Below are positions 5,318 through 58,722 of a stretch of 64,000 nucleotides of DNA, piece after piece (position 1 is the stretch's first letter; each line of letters opens with the position of its first letter). This DNA is from Zingiber officinale (Eukaryota > Streptophyta > Magnoliopsida > Zingiberales > Zingiberaceae), in NCBI RefSeq assembly GCF_018446385.1, contig NC_056003.1, positions 22,565,198 through 22,629,197 on the forward strand, read 5' to 3'. A model generated the notes under the pieces. It worked only from the letters and a program-made list of their open reading frames with translations, was not told the origin of the DNA and did no database searches. Made by a program: the position numbers and the translations under genes.

Positions 5318-7058
5318 TGTTAGGATCCTTCGTACGGCTAGAGAGGGGGGGTGTGAATAGCCGACCCCAAATTCTCGCGTTTCTTCCTACAATTTGTCAG
5401 CGCAGCGGAAAAACAAACAAGGAAACGAAAACAAGAAGATCAAACCTCAACGCGTCGATGTAACGAGGTTCGGAGATGATACTCCTACTCCTCGGCGTGT
5501 CCGTAAGGTGGACGAAGCCTCTCAATCCGTCGATGGATGAGTCCCCGGAAAACCGGCTAATACAATATACTCCTTGTGGGTGGAGAAACCTCGCCACAAT
5601 ATTCTTGCAACAGCAAGAAAGGAATACAACAAGAGATACAAGAAGACAAGAACAATGAATGTAAAAACACAGGTTTTCTTGCCTCCTTGATGAAGCAGCA
5701 GCCTCACACCACCAACAGCTGACGAGATATCCAGCCGAGAAGCTCACGCGAAGCTTCGAAGAAGAGCTCAACAAAGCTCAAGCACCAGAGCTCTGTAGCA
5801 TAAGAGAAGAGGAAGAAGAAGAAGCAGCATCCCTCACCCCTTTATACCGCGAAGAAGACGGTGAAGAAACTGGCGTTGCGTCAGCTAGAACTCGATCGGT
5901 CTGCGACCGATCAGCCTAAGCGCGTGAAGCTTCATTTGTCACCGATCGGTCCCCGCACCGATCGGTGTCGCGATCAAGCCCCGATCGGTCCCGGACCGGT
6001 CGGGCCTGCGATCGGTCCCCCGATCGATCGATCTGAAGACGTACATGCGTACTACGTCGATGCGTGGACCGATCAGGCCTGGATCGGTCCACGGACCGAT
6101 CCCAACTCGCTTCCTTCCGCGACATCGTCTCCCGATCGGTCGCCACGACCGATCGAGGAAGCTCCCGATCGGTCCACGGCGATCGAGATCTACTCGATAA
6201 GCACATCGATCGGTTCGTCGATCACGGACCGATCGGATAACAATGACTTGGTTTTGCCCAAACCAAGTCCCAAGCCTTCAAACCAACATTCGGTCAACCT
6301 CGACATGTTGGTATAAGACCGTTAGATTCGCTAGAAGACTCCTCCACCCAGTGTCCGGTCAATCCTTTGACCTACTTGGACTTTCCAACACCAGAAGTCC
6401 GATCATCCCTCATCCAGGATTTTCCTTCCCAGCTTCACTCACGGGACTTTCACCGCCTCACTCAGGATTTCCACACGCCTAACATCCAGTTAGGACTTTC
6501 TCACCGGCCTGGCTTCACTCACGGGACTTTCCCACCGCCTGGCTTCACTCACTGGACTTTCCACACTGCCTAACATCCACTAGGACTTTCCCGGCTTCAC
6601 TTACCGGGACTTTCCAACCGCCTAACATCCCAGTTAGGACTTTTCCGATGCCAAGTCTCCATACTTGGACTTTTCCATGCCAAGTCTTCATACTTGGACT
6701 TTTCGTGTGCCAAGCTCCTGCTTGGACTTTTCCTTGCCAAGTCTCTATACTTGGACTTTTCCAGGCCAAGCTCCTGCTTGGACTTTTCGTGCCAAGTCTC
6801 CATACTTGGACTTTTCGAATCAGGTCAACCAGGCCAACCTTGACCTACGGTTGCACCAATAATCTCCCAAACATCTATTCTTGTCCCACATCAAGAATAG
6901 ACTCTCTCACCAGTGTCAAACATCAACATGCAACACAACTAGGTCAACCTTGACCTAAGGTTGCAACAATCTTCCTGGTCAAACATCAAAATACAACTCG
7001 AGTCACGTCAACTCGAGTCGGTCAACCAGGTCAACCTTGACCTAAGGTTGCACCAACA
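5318..7058 (-). repeat. LTR of gag-only copy 1 (3' LTR on minus strand)
   Basis: About 1741 bp. Holds GATCGGTC/GACCGATC palindrome blocks (5936-6240) and a field of short stem-loops (about 6350-6815). Its long translated frames are repeat shadows. Confidence 0.88.
6619..6815. repeat. Short hairpin array in LTR
   Basis: Tandem units of about 28-30 bp have the form TGCC-arm-loop-arm-GGACTTTTC: CCAAGT...ACTTGG alternates with CCAAGC...GCTTGG, after CCTAAC...GTTAGG units. Arms differ between units but pair within each. Confidence 0.8.
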
Positions 7059-12762: not shown

Positions 12763-13782
12763 TGTTAGATCGTAGAGCTCACTAGAGGGGGGGGTGAATA
12801 GTGATTTAAAATTCGTTTCCAAGTTAGAATACGCAGCGGAAAAAACACAAAACAATGCTAACACGAACCAGTTTTACTTGGTTCGGAGCCTTGGTTGATT
12901 CCTACTCCAAGGCTCGCACTCGTCGAGTGCTTTCATTGGGCAATCACTAATAGTTCGAAAATTGATTACAATAGTAAGTACAAGAACTATTATAAGGAAA
13001 ATACCGATAACAATAAGAAAACAAAGCTTGAGCCGCAGGTTGTCGGAGAGGCTTTGCAGCGTCGCAGAAGCACAGCGTAGTAGAGCAGTCGTTGGAAGAC
13101 GTTGTTATTTTTTGCTCCAGGGTGAGACCTTCTTATATAGGATCCTCCGGACACCCTGATCCCTTCCGGGCGCTTGGACCATGACGTCAGCCGTCCAATC
13201 AGTGCTCGCCTAGCTATCAAGATAATTTTTATCTTTCGGGTGCCCGGACCACCTTTCCCCCAGAATGTCCTTCTCCTGTAAGAAAGTGTTAGTCCGAGGC
13301 AAAATAAAAACTAAACTACCTTGCAAAATAGAAGTTAGCACAATTATAGTAAAAGAGTAGTAATTAGATTCCGTCTCACTGAGATCAGAATCTAGTCACA
13401 ATCTCAACTTAGATTCCCAAAATGGTTCTAAGTTGGATCGACGCCTACTGTTCCCTCGAATGGGGAACGTGTCCTCACCAAGTCACTCCCCTCCATTGAC
13501 TTACCTTAACTTATTTGCCAAACGTCCGGTCAGCCCATCGACCCATCTGGACTTCGTGCCAGCTATCAGGTCAGCTCGTCGACCTAGCTGGACTTCATGT
13601 CAGACATCCGGTCAGCCCGTCGACCAGTCTGGACTTTGTGTCAGCTATCAGGTCGGCCTATCGACCTAGCTGGGCTTCTCCTGCACACTTCGTCAAAGTG
13701 TTAGATCACTATGAAACTAACTTAACTTACTTTATTATTCATCAAAACCTGAGTTAGACCGTCAATGCTAACCGCACCAATA
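12763..13782 (-). mobile_element. Solo LTR (hairpin-array family)
   Basis: 1020 bp starting TGTTAGATCG and ending CCGCACCAATA, flanked by near-identical 5-bp copies GAGAC (12758-12762) and GAGAT (13783-13787). It carries the family modules: GGGGGGGGTGAATAG near the edge, CGCAGCGGAAAA, and a 41-bp stem-loop array at 13524-13676. Related to the LTRs at 41238-42299 and 33974-35076. No internal region, so it is the product of LTR-LTR recombination. Diverged ends suggest some age. Confidence 0.82.
13524..13676. repeat. 41-bp covarying stem-loop array
   Basis: About four units with arms such as CCAGCT...AGCTGG and TCAGAC...GTCTGG around a conserved inner GGTCAGCCCGTCGACC-like stem. Confidence 0.75.
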
Positions 13783-21202: not shown

Positions 21203-21663
21203 TTAATGGTCGAGCGACAACTTTAAACCCGAGTTTATACAATGGTCGAGCGACGACCTTAAACCCGAGACTATGTCAACAGTCGAGCAGCAACCTTTAA
21301 CCCGGGTCGGCATCGAATTTACATCAATGGTCGAGCGACGACCTTAAACGCTTGTCTCCATCAACGATCGAGCGGCGACCTTAAACGCCTGTCTCCATCA
21401 ACAGTCGAGTGGCGACCTTAAACGCTTGTCTCCATCGACGATAGAGCAACGATCTTAAAACGCGTGTCTACATCAACGATCAAGCGGTGACCTTAAGTGT
21501 ATGTCTCCATCAATAGTCGAGCGACGACCTTAAACCCGACATCACATCAACGGTCGAGCGACAACCTTAAACCCAAGATCACATCAACGGTCGAGCGACG
21601 ACCTTAAACCCCAATGTTTGTATATTTTTCCTCAACGGTCGAGCGACGATCTTAAACCCTTGG
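21203..21663 (+). repeat. 37-bp minisatellite in the Tat element
   Basis: About twelve tandem units of AACGGTCGAGCGACGACC + TTAAAC + a variable 10-12 bp + CATC, mostly 37 bp. It lies between integrase and the antisense ORF region. Confidence 0.85.
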
Positions 21664-34083: not shown

Positions 34084-34275
34084 CAGATAGATCGACGAAC
34101 CGATCGAATATCTGACAAGAAATTTAGCTAGGTTGACGGACTGACCGGATAGCTGGTACGAAGTCTAGATAGATCGATGGGCTGACCAGATTTCTGGCAC
34201 GAAGTCCAGTTAGGTCAACGGACCGACCAGATAGCTGGCACGAAGCCAGACAGGTCAACGGGGCTAACGGAATGT
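34084..34275. repeat. Covarying stem-loop array in LTR
   Basis: Five degenerate units: CCAGAT...ATCTGA, TTAGCT...AGCTGG, CTAGAT...TTCTGG, CCAGTT...AGCTGG and CCAGAC...GTCTGC, around a GGTCAACGG...GACC-like core. Confidence 0.75.
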
Positions 34276-40384: not shown

Positions 40385-41237
40385 ATCTGAATCATATATA
40401 CATCAACAAACAAAATACATCAGCCCACACGACTGGAATATACACACAACCACACAGTTATATATATAAAACAGCACACACTACTGTACTAAAAATACAA
40501 CCACGCGGTTATATATATTAAACAGCCACAAGGCTGCGCTAAAAACACAGCAGAAAAATAAACGGGAATCTCATACAACCAAAACAACACAATGCATGCC
40601 GGCACAACTTAAACACAAATACAACACCAAAATCAAATAAAATAGCCACATGGCTAAACACCAATACAATGCTAAAATCAATAAAGAACGTATAAAAAGA
40701 AAGCAAGTGAGAGGTAAAACTGTCTTCTGATGTGACGAGTGACTGACAGACATGATACCTCTAAGCAACTGCTTAAACATCTACTTGTAATAGGAATAAT
40801 GCAACGGAGTGAGTTCAACAACTCAGCGGGTATCAAGCTGACATACATAGTAAAAGATAACTACCAGTAATAATCATGCGATACATTTCCCTAAACCATA
40901 ATAGGAAATGCAAACTGAAAATGCTGAATAAACTGTACTCATCAGGACCTCCTATCCGAACATAAAGGTGTGAACCTCACCAACAGATGCAGGGTCATCA
41001 GACCAAATACATAAGGTATCCTGTATGCATGTCAAACATATGCATCCACAAAAATGCAACATCCAAAGTGCAGTAATCACAAACAATAAATACAATCCAT
41101 GCATATGATGTAAAAATGACATGGTCATCCCTGACGCCAGTCAGCCATCTCACGCACAATAGTGAGACTGAGTGGGTAGGGCTATGACAACTGTGCACTC
41201 TGCCATCACTACTCCTAAGTGATCAAGTGGACAGGAT

Positions 41238-42299
41238 TGTAGGACCGTGATCGTTCGATAGAGGGGGGGGTGAATATTGATTCGAAAACTTGAGTGTAAA
41301 AGTACGCAGCGGAAAAGTAAATGAACACAGCTGATTTTACTTCGTTCGGAGCCTGTGATGACTCCTACTCGAAGGCCCGTGTTCCTTGACCACTTTCGTT
41401 GGGCAATCACTAGCAATTCGAATATGATTACAAAAAGAGTACAAGAAATGCTAATGAAACAAAGTGATACCAACAAGGAAATTAACCAAAGAAGAAGGAG
41501 CACTTTGTCAGAGCTTTGTTAGCATCGTAGGAGCGTAGAGCAGCAGGGCAAGCAGTCGAAGAGTTCTCAGTTGTGTGTTAAGCTCCACCCCTGGGGCTTC
41601 TTTTATATGCTGCTCCGGGCGCCTGGATCCCTTCTGGGCGCCCTGGTGCGACGTGGCAAGTCCAGTCAGGATGCTCCACGTGGTGAGGCGACGCAGAGGA
41701 TAAAAGTTGCCTCCGGGCGCCCGGACCACCTTTTTCCAGAGATTCCTTCTCCTGCAAAACAAGGTTAGTCCGAGGCAAAATATACCCTGCAACACAGATT
41801 GTTAGCACAATTTATAAAGTATGAATTAACAGAAAAAGTATGACTTAGATTCCGTCTTTCCGAGACCGGAATCTAGTCACGATCTCGACTTAGATATCCG
41901 AAATGGATCTAAGCCGGATCGACGCCTAATGTTCCCTTCCCGGGAACGCGTCCTCACAGTCACTCCCTTCCAGTGACTTACCTTTACTCACCTGTCAGAC
42001 GTCCGGTCAGCCCTTCGACCCGTCTGGACTTCTCGCCAGCTATCCGGTCAGCCCATCGACCTAGCTGGACTTCTCGCCAAGCGTCCGGTCAGCCCGTCGA
42101 CCTGCTTGGACTTCTCGCCAGCTATCCGGTCAGCCCATCGACCTAGCTGGGCTTCGTGCCAGACATCTGGTCAGCCCGTCGACCTGTCTGGACTTCTCCT
42201 GCACACTCGATCAAAGTGTCAGACAACAACAAAACTAACTTAACCCATTTGTCATTCATCAAAACCTAGGTTAGACCGTTAGTGCTACCCGCACCAACA
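41238..42299 (-). repeat. LTR (left copy) of interrupted element
   Basis: 1062 bp. Shared module GAGGGGGGGGTGAATA / TACGCAGCGGAAAAG near its left edge; 41-bp stem-loop array at 41995-42191. Confidence 0.9.
41995..42191. repeat. 41-bp covarying stem-loop array (clearest copy)
   Basis: Five units start at 41995, 42036, 42077, 42118 and 42159, an exact 41-bp period. Outer arms, 6 bp at offset 0 and 27: TCAGAC/GTCTGG, CCAGCT/AGCTGG, CCAAGC/GCTTGG, CCAGCT/AGCTGG, CCAGAC/GTCTGG. The inner stem GGTC...GACC is constant. The arms change but keep pairing. Confidence 0.9.
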
Positions 42300-43779
42300 A
42301 TCTCCCCCTTTTTGATGGAATGACAACCCGGTTAAGTTAGTGAAAAGACGCAAAAAATAAATAAAACAGGTACATGATTTTTTAAAGTTAGTTTTGGTGT
42401 TTTTAATTTGGTTTAGCTAACTTAACCACCTAACCCTCCCCCTTTGGCATTCATCAAAAATAGGCAATGGTAAATAAGCATAGTGTAGAGTTACTGTAAA
42501 AATTTGTAAATTTAAGAGACAGCTAAAAAAGATACTGATAAAAGTACAATTTTTTAAAACCAAGTTAAAAATAGTTAAGTTGACTTGGGGGAGTCTAGAG
42601 AAAGAAAGAAAAAAAATTGCTTTAAGTTATGAAAAACTTAGATTGCAGAGTAATTTTCAAAAGATAATATTTGCAATAATGAATTTTAAAAGTTATAAGT
42701 TTAAAGTTGATAATCTTTTCAAACATTTAAAATTTTTCAAATCAGGTTTTTCAAATTTAGAATTTAAGTAACATATACTTTTCAAAAGGTAAAATCTAAT
42801 TTTCAAATTCCAATTTTCAAACACTAAGTTGAATCTAGTTTTAAGTAAGTAAAATTTTAGCCAAAATAAATTTGTTAAAGCTAATTTGATAAAAACTAAG
42901 TTTGGAAAGTTTAATTTTCAAGCATATGTTATAAAACTGAATAAGTTTAAATTTGTAACAAATTTCAACTTTAAAATCAAGTTTTAAAAATTAGGTGGGA
43001 TTTTTAAACTTCCAATTTTCAAACACTCAGTTAAATTTAACTTCTTGAAAACTAGTGTTCAAAGATAAGTTAGATTTAAAATAGATGTACAAAAGCATTT
43101 TTCAAATATACAAAATTTTAATTAATTTCTCCCCCTGAATTTGACACTTAAAATTAACCAGCTGTCTAACCAATTAGGTACTAACTAACTATCAGAAGAT
43201 AGTAGCTTTCACTTGGTTAGTCAGATTAAGTTGATTATAAGCAGCCAGTGTTTGACTTGATTGATAAACTTAATCTGATTAATGTCTGATTTGTATTTAA
43301 CGTCCAAACTTATGCTGATGCACTGAAATAAGCATCTTAAGTCCAGACAGTTGGCCTATGCATCTCACCCCTTTCTATGTTTGTCAAACACAAGCACGGT
43401 AAACCTAAGGTGTTGGTGAGATGCTCAAAGACTAGTCCTATGGGTACATGTTTTCTAAGGATTTTGAACTAGTCTAAGGCTAAAACTTTATTTGAAAATC
43501 TAAAAAAAGGAAGGTTTTAAAAAACACAATATGTTTCAACCTATAATTTGAGAAAGCCATTTTTGAAACTGTTTTTGAAATTTGAAACTCCTAGGCTACC
43601 AAGATAGAACATAATCAATGCAGGTCTGAAATATCACTAGATAGATCTAAAATCTTTTACAGGTAGTGTAGCTACAGAAGTGAGTCATAACTAGAGCTAC
43701 TGAGATGATGAAGGGGTGGTCCAGATCCCAAGGATCGGAGAAGCGCCATCAGCTCAGTGTGTCGGGTCTCCCTGGTAGC
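42300..43779. other. Internal region of interrupted element
   Basis: AT-rich, with many TTTTCAAA / AAGTTTAA words and no coding capacity. It resembles, in reverse, the right part of the outer element's internal region (56900-57670). Confidence 0.6.
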
Positions 43780-44878
43780 TCGTAACCGTGATCGTTCGAT
43801 AGAGGGGGGGTGAATATCGATTCGAAAACTCGAGTGTAAAAGTACGCAGCGGAAAAGTAAATGAACACCGCTGATTTTACTTCGTTGGGAGCCTGTGACG
43901 ACTCCTACTCGAAGGCCCGTGGTCCTTGACCACTTTCGTTGGGCAATCACTAGCAATTCGAATATGATTACAAAAAGAGTACAAGAAATGCTAATGAAAC
44001 AAAGTGATACCGACAAGGAAATTAACCAAAGAAGAAGGAGCACTTTGTCGGAGCTTTGTTAGTGTCGTAGGAGCGTAGAGCAGCAGGGCAAATAGTCGAA
44101 GAGTTCTCAGTTGTGTGTTAAGCTCCACCCCTGGGGCTTCTTTTATATGCTGATCCGGGCGCCTGGATCCCTTCCGAGCGCCCTGGTGCGACGTGGCAAG
44201 TCCAGTTAGGATGCTCCACGTGGTGAGGCGACGCAGAGGATAAAAGTTGCCTCCGGGCGCCCGAACCTCCGGGCGCCTGGACCACCTTTTTCCAGAGATT
44301 CCTTCTCCTGCAAAACAAGGTTAGTCCGAGGCAAAATATACCCTGCAACACAAATTGTTAGCACAATTTATAAAGTATGAATTAACAGAAAAAGTATGAC
44401 TTAGATTCCGTCTTTCCGAGACCGGAATTTAGTCACGATCTCGACTTAGATATCCGAAATGGATCTAAGCCGGATCGACGCCTAATGTTCCCTTCCCGGG
44501 AACGCGTCCTCGCAGTCACTCCCTTCCAGTGACTAACCTTTACTCACCTGCCAGACGTCCGGTCAGTCCTTCGACCCGTCTGGACTTCTCACTAGCTATC
44601 CGGTCAGCCCATCGACCTAGCTGGACTTCTCGCTGTTGGTGCAACCTTAGGTAAAGGTTGACCTGGTTGACCTGACTCGAGTTGACCTGACTCGAGTTGT
44701 ATTTTGATGTTTGACTTAGGAAGATTGTCGGTGCAACCTTAGGTCAAGGTTGACCTAGTTGAGTTGCATGTTGATGTTTGACACTCGTGGAAGAGTTGTA
44801 TTCTTGATATGGGACAAGAATAGATGTTTGGGAGATTATTGGGGCAACCGTAGGTCAAGGTTGACCTGATTCGGGAAA

Positions 44879-45532
44879 AAGTCCAAGTATGGAGACTTGA
44901 CAACGGAAAAGTCCAAGCAGGGAGCTTGGCACTAGAAAAGTTCAAGTATGGAGACTTGGCACTGGAAAAGTCTAAGCAGGGAGCTTGGCACGCGAAAAGT
45001 CCAAGTATGGAGACTTGGCACGGGAAAAGTCCAAGTATGGAGACTTGGCACGGAAAAGTCCTAACTGGGATGTTAGGCAGTGTGGAAAGTTCTGGTGAGT
45101 GAAGCCAGGCAGTGGGAAAGTCATAACTGGGATGTTAGGCAGTTGGAAAGTCCTGGTGAGTGAAGCCAGGCAGTGGGAAAGTCCTAACTGGGATGTTAGG
45201 CAGTTGGAAAGTCCTGGTGAGTGAAGCCAGGCAGTGAGAAAGTCCTAACTGGGATGTTAGGCAGTGTGAAAACCCTAGTGAGTGAAGCTAGGTGAAAGTC
45301 CTGGTGAGTGAAGCCGGGCAAGGGAAAATCCAGATGGATCAAGGGTGATCGGACATCTGGTGATGGGAAGTCCAAGTAGGTCATAGGAGTGACCGGATAC
45401 TTGGCACGAAGAGGAAAGTCCAAGTGGGTCAAAGGGATTGACCGGACACTTGGTGGGGAGTCTTAGCAGGTCAAGGGAGTGACCGGATGCTAAGCATGAT
45501 GTACCAATAGGTCAAGGTTGACCGGATATTGG
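44879..45532. repeat. Stem-loop field in LTR
   Basis: First part: 29-30-bp units with arms CCAAGT/ACTTGG and CCAAGC/GCTTGG, then CCTAAC/GTTAGG and CCTGG/CCAGG. Second part (45330-45532): five longer hairpins with different arms, CCAGATG/CATCTGG, CCAAGTA/TACTTGG, CCAAGTG/CACTTGG, CTTAGCA/TGCTAAG and CCAATA/TATTGG. All surround a GGTCA...TGACC-type inner stem. Confidence 0.9.
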
Positions 45533-45572
45533 TTTGAAAGGTTTGAGACTTGGTTTGGGCAAAAACCAAGCT

Positions 45573-45895
45573 CTGGATCGGTCTGCAGACCGATCCAGCG
45601 ATACGTTTGTGTATCTGATCGATCTGGTGACCGATCAGATAACAAACAGAAGGCAAAGCGCAGTTCTGTGAGCTTACTGATCGGTCTCCACGACCGATCA
45701 GAGACGCAGCCGAGAGAGGTGGGATCCAGCTGTGGCCCGATCGGTCCACAGACCGATCAGGAAACGAACAGAAAGGTGGGCACTTTCTGTGGAGCAATCT
45801 GATCGGTCTAGGGACCGATCAGCCCAGGGCCTGATCGGTCCCCAGACCGATCAGAAGGGTTCTGGACCGATTAGGGTGGAGCCTGATCGGTCCAC
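45573..45895. repeat. GATCGGTC palindrome array
   Basis: Repeated GATCGGTC-n-GACCGATC inverted pairs. The first (45573-45598) is a perfect 26-bp palindrome from CTGGATCGGTC to GACCGATCCAG. Confidence 0.88.
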
Positions 45896-45971
45896 GATTC
45901 GACCGTTGAGTCACAACGGGTCGCTCCGTCTTCTCCGCTAGCTTCTGTCTTCGCTGTGCAGGTTCGCAGGT

Positions 45972-45980
45972 TATAAAAGG
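45972..45980 (+). promoter_or_regulatory. LTR TATA box
   Basis: GGTTATAAAAGGAG context, downstream of the palindrome array. Conserved at 51268-51276 in the right LTR. Confidence 0.65.
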
Positions 45981-46503
45981 AGATCAAGGCTTTGGTGCAA
46001 CTTCTTCTTCTTCCTTCTTTCTTCTCTTCTTGGTGAAGATTGCTGTTGAGCTCTGTTGAGTTCCTCCGAAGCTTCGCGTGAGCTTCCGGCTGGATCACCT
46101 GCTGCTGTAGGCTGCTTCATCCGGACTCCAGTCGACGAGAAAGCAAGATTGGTAGAGTGCTTGTGTATTCTTATTGTATTTCTTGCTTATTCTTTGTACT
46201 TGTACTCCTGTTTGCTGTTGCAAACAAGTGTGACGAGGTTTCTCCACCCAGAAGGAGTTTTTATTAGCCGGTTTTCCGGGGACTCATCCACCGACGGATT
46301 GATTGGGTTCGTCCACCTTACGGACACGCCGAGGAGTAGGAGCATCATCTCCGAACCTCGTACATCGCTGTGTTAAGGTTTGATATTCTTCCTTTCGTTT
46401 CTAGTTTATTTTTCCGCTGCGCTAACGAATTGTAGGAAGAAACGAGTGATTTGGGGCGGCTATTCACACCCCCCTCTCTAGCCGAGTACGTAGGATCCTA
46501 ACA

Positions 46504-46517
46504 AGTGGTATCAGAGC
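46504..46517 (+). promoter_or_regulatory. Primer-binding site (tRNA-Met)
   Basis: AGTGGTATCAGAGC directly after the left LTR. Confidence 0.9.
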
Positions 46518-46564
46518 GAGGCCGCTCTTCGACGGATCAACACCCGGGGGAGCACGGGCTAGAG

Positions 46565-48014
46565 ATGGATCTCTATGGAGAAGATGTCACGATTCAAGCC
46601 TTCTACGAGTCTCACGACAACTTCACATATTGGAAGGTAAGGATGATGTATTTTCTTAGAACTAATATGTTACATTGGTTTTGTGTACAAGAAGGGTTTT
46701 CCCCTCCGAAGGATGAGGAAGGAAAACCTATCAAGAAGCAGGAGTGGACGAAAGAGCAAATCCGACAATCCGAAATCAATGACGAGGTAACAAAAATTAT
46801 TGAATTTGCTTTGCCTAATAATGTTTTGTGCAAGATAGATAGGTACAACAACGCCAAGGAATTGTGGAACAATTTGGCAAAATTCCATGAAAAGGAGCCT
46901 AGTGAGCCAAGTAGCTCACATCATGGAGGAAGCGAATTGGAAGTTGAGGGCTACTCAACATCCAAGGAAGAAGAGGAGGAGAGCTCTTGTTCAAGATCGG
47001 AGCAAGAAGAGGCATCTACCTCCGGAAGGGATGAAGAAGAAAGCTCATCTCCATCCACAAACCTAGGTAACTCAAACACTTTAATTTCGAGCAAATTACA
47101 TATATTATGCTTTGAGTGTAGGGAGTATGGACATTACAAGAGCAAATGTCCAAAGAGAGTTAGGAAGACTCCACCGGTGCCTAAGGTCAAGGAAGCCGGA
47201 GGCCCGATACGCAAAGGCAAGGAGCACGTGGTGTGCTTCCAATGCAAGCGAAGGGGACACTATAGGAGCCAATGTCCGAGGGGGAGGCAACCTCACAAGG
47301 ACAAGAAACCAAGCACATCAATAGGGGGCTAAGGCAAACCCTAAGGTAATCTCTAAGGTTCATTATTGCAATTCTAATAAAACTCATGCTAGTAGTTTTG
47401 TTGCAATTGTTAATAATGATAAGCATGTTAACTTTAGGAACCAATACATGTGCTTAGGAGCTAAACATGTTAGCCTAGGTAAGGATAACACTAGAAATAC
47501 CAACCATAGGATTAACGCTTCTAAAGTTAAGGAAAACCTAGGTAGAAATCCCAAGAAGACTAGACACATGCCTAGGAATATCTCAAGAGAAAATGACAAA
47601 TTAACACTTGAGGTATTAGAGAGGGAAAATCAAGTCTTGAGGTCAAGACTTGATAATTTAGAAAATGCCCTTAAAAACATGGAGAAGTCATCTCTAGGGT
47701 TTAAGAGTCAAAAACCCAAGTCCAAGGACAAGAAAGGTTTGGGTCACAAACCTAAGTCCCAAGTGGTCAAGCCCACTTATCATAGTGTTCCATTCGATTA
47801 TGGAACAAAACCTAGGGCTAGGAAGACCACCACCAAGGTCACAAGGGGAGTCACCCCTAGAGTTGATCTTGATGAGTCCCAAATGACCAAGGCTTCAAAG
47901 CCTAAGAGGGTCATTAGGAGGGTTGCTAGGGAAGTCATCCCTAGTGAATATTTAGTGAACCCAATGAGCTCACATAGATATTGGGTTCCTAGGAGCATCT
48001 TCTCTATCCCATAG
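46565..48014 (+). pseudogene. Gag region of gag-only copy 2 (fossil)
   Basis: Closely related to the gag at 9177-10493: MDLYGEDVTIQAFYE start, two zinc knuckles (CFECREYGHYKSKC, CFQCKRRGHYRSQC) and the LEVLERENQVLRSRLDNLE coiled stretch. Broken at about one place; not a complete frame. Confidence 0.85.
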
Positions 48015-49962
48015 ATGGGTTAGAGAGTGTCAACTCCAATTAGAAGGGTAGTTAACCCAACTTTGAGGAAATTGACACTCAAGGAGCATTTTCAAGGTTT
48101 TGTGAACCTTTGAAAATGAAAAGGAATTATCGTTTACTCCTTGAAGAGTAAATTGTGCCATATTTGAAAAATATCGATTTTAATCTTATTTGGCACAATT
48201 TAAGAAAACCTAGAGAAATACCATAATTGGGATTTTGGTTTTCTCTTAGGGATATATGGGCAATCTAGGGTTAGATTTTAAGTTAGCTAAGGCTAAGGAT
48301 ACTTAGATAGGGAATTTAGGTATTTTATTTGTGCTAACTTGCCATGATTGGTTGCCATATGCCATGCCATGACATCATATTTAGTTTATTATCATTTGAA
48401 ATGTCATGATAATGCTTAGGCTAGTTTATATGTCATGTTTTATTTAAGTTTTCAAACTTTATGCCATGACATCATGACATTGGCACATGTTTTTACTTAT
48501 GATATCATTATATGTCATGTCATCATCTCTTGCATTATAATCAATGAAATTGATTTAAGGACAAACATATAATTTGATATTGAGATCAAATTGGTGTCTA
48601 GAAAATGCATGAGAACTTAACCTAAGTTGACCTTAACCCATATCTCACATCAAATTGACTTGAATGTGGTTTGATACACCTTAGATGTGTGTGAGATATT
48701 AGGATCATGAGTCAGGATCAAGGTGCATTGTCCTTGTGCCTAGATGACCCTAATTAAAGAAATTAAGGATCATAGGGAAAGCTTGTGTACAAGTCATGTA
48801 CATCTAGCCCTAAGATTATGGTCCTAAATTCAAATGACTTTAAAAGTATTTTAAAATTGATTTGAAAAACCTTGATGAAGCTTTCCTAGTGATAGTATTC
48901 ATCATTGAACATTGTGATACAAAGTTGAGTTAAACTTGAACTATTTCAAAGTTTTTGAACATTGTATCAAGATTGAAAATTGAAAGTTATTTTCATAGAA
49001 AACTATTTTTCCATGATAGTATATGTCATGAGGAATGTATCCTCAAAATTTCACAATTTTTCGAATTTTCTGGAATTTTCTAGGAGTTTCTGAATTTCGG
49101 GAAGGAAATTTCAGAAATCTGCCTATCAGAGTCTGGATCGGTCTGGGGACCGATCCAGGTAAGTCCTGATCGGTCTGTGGACCGATCCAGTGAAGCATGG
49201 ATCGGTCTGCAGACCGATCAGAGAGCTTGGTGCGATCTGGTGAAGGCTTGATCGGTCTGGGGACCGATCCATGGGGTTTCTGATCGGTCTGGGGACCGAT
49301 CAGAGCGTGCCAGTTTCTGATTTTCAGCTGTTGGTCTGAAATTTCAGCTGGAAGTTGGGTTTTGTGGATTTCTAAAGGTTTGGAACTCACAAAGACATTG
49401 TTGGTGCAATGGTCAAGGGGGAGTTGACCTTTAGGGGGAGTTTTACCTAATTGTCAAGGGGGAGTTGACTTTTAGGGGGAGTTTTTACTCCTTAAGACTT
49501 TTGAGGATTAGTGATATGGGATTATCACTAAGTTGATTGTTGAGTTTAGTATCAAGGGGAAAATTAAGAGTTTCAATGAAAGGTATGGGACTTTCATTAG
49601 GAAGAAACTCTTGACCTTGATACCCTCCTTTTTCTTTTTGATGTATGTCAAAAAGGGGAGAGTATTCATTGGAGAATTATTGGAGAAACCCAAGTTAGGT
49701 TATCGGGTTAACCTAAGCTAGGGGAAGAATGTCAAGGAATGTTCGAGGAAGAACATTGGAATTCTTTTTGATGTGTGTCAAAAAGGGGGAGAATTATTGG
49801 AGAACCCAAGTTAGGTTATCGGGTTAACCTAAGGGGAGAATGTCCAGAGAATGTTCAAGGAAAGAACATTGGACATTGGAAGATGATTGGAAAACCTAAG
49901 TTAGGTTATCGGGTTAACCTAACTTGATGATGGGTTTTGTCAAACATCAAAAAGGGAGAGAT
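48015..49962. other. Non-coding internal region of gag-only copy 2
   Basis: AT-rich with CATGACAT words (48360-48520), GATCGGTC palindromes (49135-49310), and repeated TAGGTTATCGGGTTAACCTA blocks (49690-49930), themselves near-palindromic. Confidence 0.7.
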
Positions 49963-50218
49963 TGTTGGTGCAACCTTAGGTCAAGGTTGACCTGGTTGAC
50001 CTGACTCGAGTTGACCTGACTCGAGTTGTATTTTGATGTTTGACTTAGGAAGATTGTCGGTGCAACCTTAGGTCAAGGTTGACCTAGTTGAGTTGCATGT
50101 TGATGTTTGACACTCGTGGAAGAGTTGTATTCTTGATATGGGACAAGAATAGATGTTTGGGAGATTATTGGGGCAACCGTAGGTCAAGGTTGACCTGGTT
50201 GACCTGATTCGGGAAAAA

Positions 50219-50862
50219 GTCCAAGTATGGAGACTTGACAACGGAAAAGTCCAAGCAGGGAGCTTGGCACTAGAAAAGTTCAAGTATGGAGACTTGGCAC
50301 TGGAAAAGTCCAAGCAGGGAGCTTGGCACGCGAAAAGTCCAAGTATGGAGACTTGGCACGGGAAAAGTTCAAGTATGGAGACTTGGCACTGGAAAAGTCC
50401 AAGTATGGAGACTTGGCACGGAAAAGTCCTAACTGGGATGTTAGGCAGTGTGGAAAGTCCTGGTGAGTGAAGCCAGGCAGTGGGAAAGTCCTAACTGGGA
50501 TGTTAGGCAGTTGGAAAGTCCTGGTGAGTGAAGCCAGGCAGTGAGAAAGTCCTAACTGGGATGTTAGGCAGTGTGAAAACCCTAGTGAGTGAAGCTAGGT
50601 GAAAGTCCTGGTGAGTGAAGCCGGGCAAGGGAAAATCCAGATGGATCAAGGGTGATCGGACATCTGGTGATGGGAAGTCCAAGTAGGTCATAAGAGTGAC
50701 CGGATACTTGGCACGAAGAGGAAAGTCCAAGTGGGTCAAAGGGATTGACCGGACACTTGGTGGGGAGTCTTAGCAGGTCAAGGGAGTGACCGGATGCTAA
50801 GCATGATGTACCAATAGGTCAAGGTTGACCGGATATTGGTTTGAAAGGTTTGGGACTTGGTT
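50219..50862. repeat. Stem-loop field in right LTR
   Basis: Same unit types and order as 44879-45532. Some units are missing or duplicated, showing unit turnover after insertion. Confidence 0.88.
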
Positions 50863-50879
50863 TGGGCAAAAACCAAGCT

Positions 50880-51190
50880 CTGGATCGGTCTGCAGACCGA
50901 TCCAGCGATACGTTTGTGTATCTGATCGATCTGGTGACCGATCAGATAACAAACAGAAGGCAAAGCGCAGTTCTGTGAGCTTACTGATCGGTCTGGGGAC
51001 CGATCAGCATGAAGCCTGATCGGTCTCCACGACCGATCAGAGACGCAGCCGAGAGAGGTGGGATCGGTCTGTGGACCGATCCCAGACCGATCCAGCTGTG
51101 GCCTGATCGGTCCACAGACCGATCTAGGGACCGATCAGCCCAGGGCCTGATCGGTCCCCAGACCGATCAGGGTGGAGCCTGATCGGTCCA
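50880..51190. repeat. GATCGGTC palindrome array in right LTR
   Basis: Starts with the same perfect 26-bp palindrome (50880-50905). Unit order differs from the left LTR. Confidence 0.88.
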
Positions 51191-52058
51191 CGATTCGACC
51201 GTTGAGTCACAACGGGTCGCTCCGTCTTCTCCGCTGGCTTCTGTCTTCGCTGTGCAGGTTCGCAGGTTATAAAAGGAGATCAAGGCTTTGGTGCAACTTC
51301 TTCTTCTTCCTTCTTTCTTCTCTTCTGCTGAAGATTTGTGGGCTGCGATAAGAGCTCTGTTGAGTTCCTCCCGAAAGCTTCGCGTGAGCTTCCCCGACTG
51401 GAACAGCTGCTGCTGTTAGGGTTTTTGAAGCTGCTGCTTCATCCGGACTCCAGTCGACGAGAAAGCAAGATTGGTAGAGTGCTTGTGTATTCTTATTGTA
51501 TTTCTTGCTTATTCTTTGTACTTGTACTCCTGTTTGCTGTTGCAAACAAGTGTGGCGAGGTTTCTCCACCCAGAAGGAGTTTTTATTAGCCGGTTTTCCG
51601 GGGACTCATCCACCGACGGATTGATTGGGTTCGTCCACCTTACGGACACGCCGAGGAGTAGGAGCATCATCTCCGAACCTCGTACATCGCTGTGTTAAGG
51701 TTTGATATTCTTCCTTTCGTTTCTAGTTTATTTTTCCGCTGCGCTAACGAATTGTAGGAAGAAACGAGTGATTTGGGGCGGCTATTCACACCCCCCCTCT
51801 CTAGCCGAGTACGTAGGATCCTAACACTCGCCAAGCGTCCGGTCAGCCCATCGACCCACTTGGACTTCTCGCCAGCTATCCGGTCAGCCCGTCGACCTAG
51901 CTGGGCTTCGTGCCAGACATCTGGTCAGCCCGTCGACCTGTCTGGACTTCTCCTGCACACTCGATCAAAGTGTCAGACAACAACAAAACTAACTTAACCC
52001 ATTTGTCATTTATCAAAACCTAGGTTAGACCGTTAGTGCTACCCGCACCAACAAGGAT

Positions 52059-57670: not shown

Positions 57671-58722
57671 TGTTGGTGTAGTTAGCACTAATGGTCTAAT
57701 TCAGGTTTTGATGAATGACAAAGTAAATTAAGTTAGGTTTGTTGTGATCTAACGATCTAACTGAGTGTGCAGGAGAAGTCGAGATAGGTCGACCGAATAT
57801 CTGACAAGAAATCTAGCTAAGTCAACGGGTTGACCAGATAGATGATACGAAGTCCAGATAGGTCGACGGGCTACCCAGATATCTGGCAGGAAGTCCAGCT
57901 AGGTCAACGGGCCGACCGGAAAGCTGGCACGAAGCTTAGATAGGTTGATGGGCTGAACGAATGTCTGGCAAAACAGTAAGTTAAGGTAAGTCACTAGAGG
58001 GGAGTGACTTGGTGAAGACGCGTTCCCCGTTTGAGGGAACAATAGGCGTCGATGCAACTTAGATTTATTTCGAAAATTTAAGTTGAGATCCTGACTAGAT
58101 TCTGGTCTCAAGGAAACAGAATTTAATTACTACTCTGTTTCTATTATATTTGTGCTAACGTTTGTTTTGTAGGATAGTATAATGTTTATTGTCTCGGACT
58201 AATCTTTTTCTTGTAGAAAAAGCTTTTGTTGGAAAAAGGGGTTCGGGCGCCCGGAATGTAAAAGTTTATCTCGTCGCAACGTGGAGTGTGCTGATTGGTC
58301 GGGTCGATGTCACGATCCAGGCGCTCGGAAGGGATCCGGGCGCCCGGAGCTACCTATATAAGGAGCTCTCCACCTAGAGTAAAGAGACACAACTTCCTTC
58401 TACGATTGTTCTGTTGCACACTGTTCCTGCGATGCTACGAAGCTCCTCCGACAACCTGCGACTTAATTTCTTCTTCCTTATTGTCGGTATTCTTTTCATA
58501 ATTCTTGTACTAAATCGTGTAATACTTTTGTGAATTATTAGTGATTACCCAACGAAAACAGTTTCACGTGCAGGCCTTGGAGTAGGAGCCGACGAAGGCT
58601 CCGAACCAAGCAAAATTGGTTTTGTTAGCGTTGTGTTTAACTTTCTGTTTCCGCTGCTTAGTTGATAACGAATTTTTGACGATCGCTATTCACCGCCCCC
58701 CCAAAAACTTTACAATCCAACA
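57671..58722 (+). repeat. Outer element right LTR
   Basis: 1052 bp. Stem-loop array near 57776-57967, TATA at 58355, CGCCCGG hairpins at 58240-58350. Followed by ATACC. Confidence 0.88.

Follow-up and report, generated by a model that had tools for sequence, protein, structure and literature searches.

Paired arm types in a tandem hairpin array of a Sirevirus-type LTR, probably mainly inherited, with some subtypes that may be younger

Clusters of palindromic repeated motifs, the RM boxes, are known from the upstream half of Sirevirus LTRs, where they precede the TATA box (Bousios et al. 2010, PMC2829016). In the available parts of that paper, the RM consensus sequences are palindromes of 10–20 bp, all but one with a CGG–CCG core, that start 200–400 bp into the LTR. 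For maize Sireviruses, a 2016 study reported, as far as the available text of the papers covers it, palindromes in the LTR cis-region with predicted hairpins, high variability and small-RNA mapping, the motif being CACCGGACNNNGTCCGGTG (PMC10760457, PMC5311732). Here we describe an array of five hairpin units in a window of 64,000 nucleotides (the whole stretch of DNA that was analysed). An earlier note on this DNA knew of no such array in plant LTRs, but palindromic arrays in Sirevirus LTRs have been published (PMC2829016; maize work cited in PMC10760457). Judged against the available parts of these sources, the general kind of array is known in plant LTRs, and the compound bulged unit looks new.

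The placement of the array in an LTR by the same note is confirmed: it is part of the 3′ LTR of a copia-type element on the minus strand (element A), and the PPT, LTR junction and inverted repeat, all non-coding signatures, suggest that this element is of Sirevirus type. The parts of element A are as follows.

41238–42299, minus strand: 3′ LTR of element A, with a TG start after the PPT and AT, and a CA end at 41238
42302–42309, minus strand: polypurine tract (PPT) AGGGGGAG, followed by the AT/TG junction
42234–42341, minus strand: inverted repeat flanking the PPT and the LTR start (arms 42234–42257 and 42318–42341)
41811–41816, minus strand: first TATA-like site, about 180 bp downstream of the array in sense
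41602–41607, minus strand: second TATA-like site, about 390 bp downstream of the array in sense
51826–52053, minus strand: outer piece of the 5′ LTR, array units 1–3 (97.8% identity to the 3′ LTR over 225 positions)
43785–44633, minus strand: inner piece of the 5′ LTR, array units 4–5 (97.1% identity to the 3′ LTR over 833 positions)

The TSD of element A is AGGAT (41233–41237 and 52054–52058). The AGGGGGAG-AT-TG junction is an exact match on the minus strand at 42291–42309, three AGGGGGAG copies lie on the strand of element A between its LTRs (42302, 42436 and 43129), and the 24-nt arms of the inverted repeat at the PPT/3′ LTR junction are 88% complementary. The array occupies the stretch 108–304 bp inside the 1062-bp LTR, in its upstream half and before both TATA-like sites. 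Only about 1.5 kb separate the two LTRs, and the longest listed ORF that overlaps this region has 123 amino acids, so element A is probably a deleted or non-autonomous copy. As a side observation, GGGCGCC palindromes occur in its LTR at 41617–41745, in sense just upstream of the TATA-like site at 41607.

The locus resembles published Sireviruses, within the available account, in its PPT octamer, AT/TG junction, several PPT copies and inverted repeat, and its array resembles RM boxes in its clustered dyad-symmetric units and in its place ahead of the TATA box, within the upstream half of the LTR (PMC2829016). With five units per LTR, element A has ten, counting array units alone, and the published Sirevirus criterion as available is at least eight RM copies. 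Unlike the RM boxes described there, the unit is a bulged hairpin of 33 nt in which inner stem, loop and bulge are conserved and the outer arms vary and covary. Two further differences from the RM boxes of that account count against the explanation that we prefer below: the array begins 108 bp into the LTR and not at 200–400 bp, and the core of the unit, which reads CCGGTC...GACC on the plus strand and is only partly symmetric, resembles the CGG–CCG core in part only. Clearer CGG–CCG palindromes are found nearer the TATA-like site at 41607 and in a nested element (element B, below). The maize palindromes, as available, share with the array their place in the LTR cis-region, the predicted hairpins and the high sequence variability, but the motif is a different one, and small RNAs were mapped in maize whereas the array here is known from sequence (PMC10760457, PMC5311732). 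The available parts of these two papers make no mention of arm covariation in the maize hairpins, and neither they nor those of PMC2829016 mention a compound bulged unit or paired divergence of positional arm types. Nothing on such arrays appears in the available part of PMC3601003, and the literature on covariation or compensatory change in Sireviruses showed nothing relevant, as judged by title and abstract start.

The period of 41 bp is exact, with unit starts at 41995, 42036, 42077, 42118 and 42159 (array 41995–42191, n = 5), and the common GGTC...GACC inner stem is present in all five units, as the earlier note had described. On the plus strand a unit consists of CC, five variable bases, TCC, GGTC, an 8-nt loop, GACC, five variable bases and GG; the exceptions are TC in place of CC in the first unit (41995) and TCT in place of TCC in one unit. 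Because three unpaired bases separate the inner from the outer stem (in sense GGA in four of the five units and AGA in the other), the unit is a bulged hairpin. The outer stem has up to 7 bp; its seventh pair varies too, being A-T or G-C, and is non-Watson–Crick in unit 3 (G-T on the plus strand, A-C in sense). The arm classes named in the earlier note are present, but there are four main classes and not three, AGACA/TGTCT and AGACG/CGTCT being separate, and the left arm of the 41995 unit is TCAGAC and not CCAGAC, so that its outermost pair is T-G on the plus strand. In sense we call the classes A (AGACA/TGTCT), T (AGCTA/TAGCT), K (AAGCG/CGCTT) and G (AGACG/CGTCT). The units, and three arrays of like kind elsewhere in the window, are as follows.

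42159–42191, minus strand: hairpin unit 1 in sense, class AGACA/TGTCT
42118–42150, minus strand: hairpin unit 2 in sense, class AGCTA/TAGCT
42077–42109, minus strand: hairpin unit 3 in sense, class AAGCG/CGCTT with one base changed (AAGCA/CGCTT)
42036–42068, minus strand: hairpin unit 4 in sense, class AGCTA/TAGCT
41995–42027, minus strand: hairpin unit 5 in sense, class AGACG/CGTCT with the outermost pair changed
13518–13673, minus strand: diverged 41-bp array
34124–34238, plus strand: diverged 41-bp array
57813–57968, plus strand: diverged 41-bp array

The sense order is A-T-K-T-G in both LTRs of element A, the 5′ LTR having the five unit classes in the order of the 3′ LTR despite being split by element B. 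The K unit carries different single changes in the two LTRs (AAGTG/CGCTT and AAGCA/CGCTT). An Rfam scan of the window gave no family reaching the gathering score.

In the array of the 5′ LTR of element A, the insertion point of element B is no more than one base away from the foot of hairpin K; element B has hairpins of its own.

44634–51825, plus strand: element B, delimited by its junctions and the TSD CTCGC
45330–45532, plus strand: five GGA-bulge hairpins with different paired arms in the 5′ LTR of element B (starts 45330, 45372, 45420, 45462 and 45504)
44877–45328, plus strand: 29/30-bp and 61-bp stem-loop arrays in the 5′ LTR of element B

A PBS-like TGGTATCAGAGC of element B lies at 46506. 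Its family has 24,112 places in the genome when the arms are left free, the outermost C and G are kept constant and at most one mismatch is allowed; 68 of the 79 places listed with letters pair perfectly over seven pairs. These fall into three types, and a T-A to C-G exchange separates two of the three. Several side observations belong here. The LTR of element B strings together numerous distinct hairpins, and an AAGTCC...GGCA frame is common to many of them. Palindromes of the GATCGGTC...GACCGATC type at 45571–45910, upstream of the TATA-like site of element B (45972), closely resemble motifs published for Sireviruses, CGGTCTGACCG and CGGTCAGACCG. In hairpins with a TGAGTGAAG loop (45294–45319, 50600–50630 and 6571–6630) one arm pair is T-A, T-G or C-G depending on the copy, a series that resembles a compensatory path via sense G-U, and some older copies are mismatched.

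A loose unit pattern with free arms and at most two mismatches matched 83,151 units in the 3.09-Gb genome, and its reversed control had no match genome-wide. Tens of thousands of array copies in one genome are a rare natural data set for telling inherited from maintained pairing. Hairpin classes tend toward fixed positions within blocks, so much of the association between arms is inheritance of whole units. Among 23 fetched loci, four (L034, L044, L045 and L048) have an unmutated A-T-K-T-G block; in the remaining 19 the blocks are mutated, longer, shorter or degraded, which we count against the preferred explanation. Locus L033 has the A-T-K-T-G order with single changes in both of its arrays. 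The variation among the fetched blocks includes K-T insertions, losses and degraded blocks. Units that combine the sense 5′ arm of T with the 3′ arm of K number 158 genome-wide (one of the two directions counted), compared with 12,795 for the parent T and 9,492 for the parent K. By eye, the 100 places listed of these 158 include five same-strand pairs 4–12 kb apart; if this is two-LTR spacing, there has been transposition of elements in which one hairpin is largely mismatched, and no hairpin would be strictly needed on its own.

Arms of distinct hairpin types covary, transversions included, and pairing is kept. All five variable pairs are Watson–Crick in 104 of 144 units (window plus the 23 fetched loci, at most three core mismatches; 26 of 170 units were dropped for having more), with 28.6 expected for independent arms. 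In 29 window hairpins (26 distinct) drawn from the array's own family, the three diverged arrays, element B and older element B relatives, 91.9% of pair cells are paired and 38 cells are changed on both sides. The covariation score is 0.408, with at most 0.126 for slid partners and an average of 0.207 for shuffles (0 of 500 reach 0.408), a score to be read with the caveat that the types are few and that related rows inflate such values. The two measures that relatedness affects least give weak results: the 7 pairs with changes on both sides are matched in 31 of 500 shuffles, and the 15 further pair types in 215 of 500. Column pair 5–30 occurs as A-U, C-G, G-C and U-G in the window hairpins, for which deamination alone is no explanation. 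The proposal in the earlier note that arms change together while pairing is conserved therefore stands between types and in a second LTR family, but much of the joint change is whole-unit inheritance.

For recent variation within classes, two tests disagree. Genome-wide, exact counts were made at one pair of class AGCTA/TAGCT, with an exact core required, which favours younger units. Relative to the 12,795 parents, the pair-2 singles number 529 (sense G-U) and 331 (A-C), and those at the outer pair 373 (sense G-U) and 325 (A-C). The partner double was seen 21 times with 13.7 expected (odds ratio 1.53, 0.98–2.41) and the non-partner double 24 times with 15.4 expected (odds ratio 1.56, 1.02–2.37). 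There is thus no excess of partner over non-partner doubles at this pair genome-wide (ratio 0.99, 95% interval 0.54–1.80), and the small excess common to both agrees with a population of copies of mixed age. The second test covers five variable pairs in 122 units from the fetched loci (3 of 125 units unassigned, window units left out). The 610 pairs include 6 partner doubles, where site rates predict 1.17, and the 2440 non-partner combinations across the arms include 2 doubles, where 2.89 are predicted; six units have changes in both arms, and each of them includes a partner coincidence. Permutation within classes gives 1.6 partner doubles on average and reaches 6 in 10 of 5000 runs, and permuting only the six units changed in both arms reaches 6 in 210 of 5000. 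The six come from five loci (L035, L037, L040, L047 with two units, and L051) and look like double transitions of G-C pairs, the class assignment being uncertain for some. This excess goes against plain independent decay and may reflect compensated subtypes (for example AAACG/CGTTT), shared ancestry or decay at favoured sites. Independent divergence of the arms, which the earlier note had named as evidence against its proposal, is thus what the genome-wide pair shows and not what the 122-unit sample shows. The conflict can be resolved directly with the full genome, and the count of partner against non-partner doubles is a simple control, usable for other repeat families.

In the same 122 units, departures from the class letters number 48 of 1220 in arms, 23 of 976 in the inner stem, 14 of 366 in the bulge, 42 of 854 in the loop, 34 of 488 in the outer CC/GG and 58 of 610 in the spacer; these counts carry no claim of constraint, given that the loci were picked by a pattern fixing the outer CC/GG and the core and that the spacer letters are partly positional. 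Same-strand recurrences 4–12 kb apart, taken as two LTRs and counted by eye, amount to 8 pairs among the 100 matches listed of the 529 singles, 5 among 100 listed of the 331, 3 among 100 listed of the 373 and 4 among 100 listed of the 325, numbers too few to separate G-U from A-C. The same count gave none among the 21 partner doubles and none among the 24 non-partner doubles.

Folded alone, single units form bulged hairpins on the plus strand in five of five cases and in sense in four of five, unit 3 folding otherwise. The four that do so in sense have a 6–7-bp outer stem, an inner stem of 5 bp closed by G-U and, on the 3′ side, a bulge of 3 nt. For the array of five units as a whole, the fold of the sense strand is not better than that of shuffled sequences (z −1.06; second run −0.81), and its best structure lacks the unit hairpins; the antisense strand folds better (z −2.65). 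The sense strand of region 44870–45570 in element B folds better than shuffles (z −5.41, 20 shuffles), and both sub-regions of this region have antisense z scores that are stronger than in sense, −3.14 and −10.36 compared with −2.25 and −4.5 in sense. Sense G-U singles exceed A-C singles at both pairs counted genome-wide, to different extents (heterogeneity p 0.0016), and this bias could stem from sequence context or founder copies. Neither the folds nor the G-U bias singles out sense RNA.

The explanation to which we lean, with somewhat better than even confidence, is that the array corresponds to the palindromic repeat block of a copia LTR of Sirevirus type, located in U3 upstream of two TATA-like sites, made up of old positional paralogues that spread as whole blocks and whose arms decay after insertion. 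It is favoured because of the junction, the PPT copies, the inverted repeat and the array position before the TATA-like sites; because the A-T-K-T-G order recurs, types covary and the one pair counted genome-wide has no partner excess; and because the units are abundant while the reversed control is empty, with mixed-arm units at 158. The positional paralogues would have arisen from one 41-bp bulged hairpin by tandem duplication, with founder-type arms diverging while complementary, possibly under selection in active elements. Transposition would then have spread whole blocks, and the block variation among fetched loci suggests that unit slippage altered their length. After insertion the arms would decay, independently at the one pair counted genome-wide; with 6 partner doubles where 1.6 are expected in the 122 units, decay may not be wholly independent, and this small sample over all pairs points to an origin of some compensated subtypes inside the main classes as well. 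The pairing would thus be mainly inherited with old unit types, and some compensated subtypes may be younger. The most likely function is that of putative dyad-symmetric cis-regulatory units in U3. In transcripts with the U3 of the 3′ LTR the units could also fold into short hairpins that feed small-RNA production, by analogy with what has been proposed for maize Sireviruses.

A different reading, which we consider unlikely though the strongest of the alternatives, is that active elements are under selection for RNA structure in the sense transcript (3′ copy of U3) and that this structure continues to shape the arms, with compensated subtypes still arising as a result. Covariation between hairpin types agrees with it, as do the excess of partner over non-partner doubles in the fetched units, the surplus of sense G-U singles at pair 2, the fold of region 44870–45570 and the arm series T-A, T-G, C-G in the element B family (CCTGG/CCAGG, CCTGG/CCGGG, CCCGG/CCGGG). 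It has to contend with the missing partner excess at the pair counted genome-wide, the weak G-U bias at the outer pair, an array that is unremarkable in sense and folds better in antisense, mixed-arm hairpins that, judged by eye, some elements seem to carry in both of their LTRs, and mismatched arms in older copies of the element B family; moreover, the six sample doubles, from five loci, are double transitions and may share ancestry. A more specific form, in which compound hairpins (7-bp variable stem, GGA bulge, conserved inner stem and loop) are under structural selection in active Sirevirus lineages of the source plant, as a modular element of the transcript 3′ end whose positional units are kept different so that each folds alone, we hold to be a little less likely still.

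Pairing could also be restored without selection if template switching (quasi-palindrome correction) re-copied one arm from the other. Hairpins are plausible pause sites, and such re-copying would account for joint arm changes, the sample excess included. It predicts an excess of partner doubles everywhere, but the genome-wide ratio at the pair counted is 0.99, and by eye none of the 21 partner doubles recurs at two-LTR spacing; we regard it as improbable. Least probable of all is methylation decay, in which C-to-T change on both strands turns G-C into A-T and mimics compensation, so that recent covariation would be only apparent. All six pairs of the fetched units that changed on both sides are paired, the arms show changes of the G-C to A-T type, and C>T or G>A accounts for 29 of the 48 departures in arms. 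Such decay should raise non-partner doubles too, of which 2 were seen and 2.9 expected, and recent doubles are all that it can explain, since transversions separate the main classes. As a warning, RNA selection can be mimicked by covariation between tandem units or among copies that decay by C-to-T change.

Two minor observations remain. Tandem arrays at 21209–21609 and 612–927, with periods of 36–37 and 60 bp, are by eye unrelated to the LTR hairpins. The arms AAACG/CGTTT, or close forms, recur among the fetched loci (at the K position in L037 and L051, and in L047) and are perhaps a fifth, compensated hairpin class of older elements.
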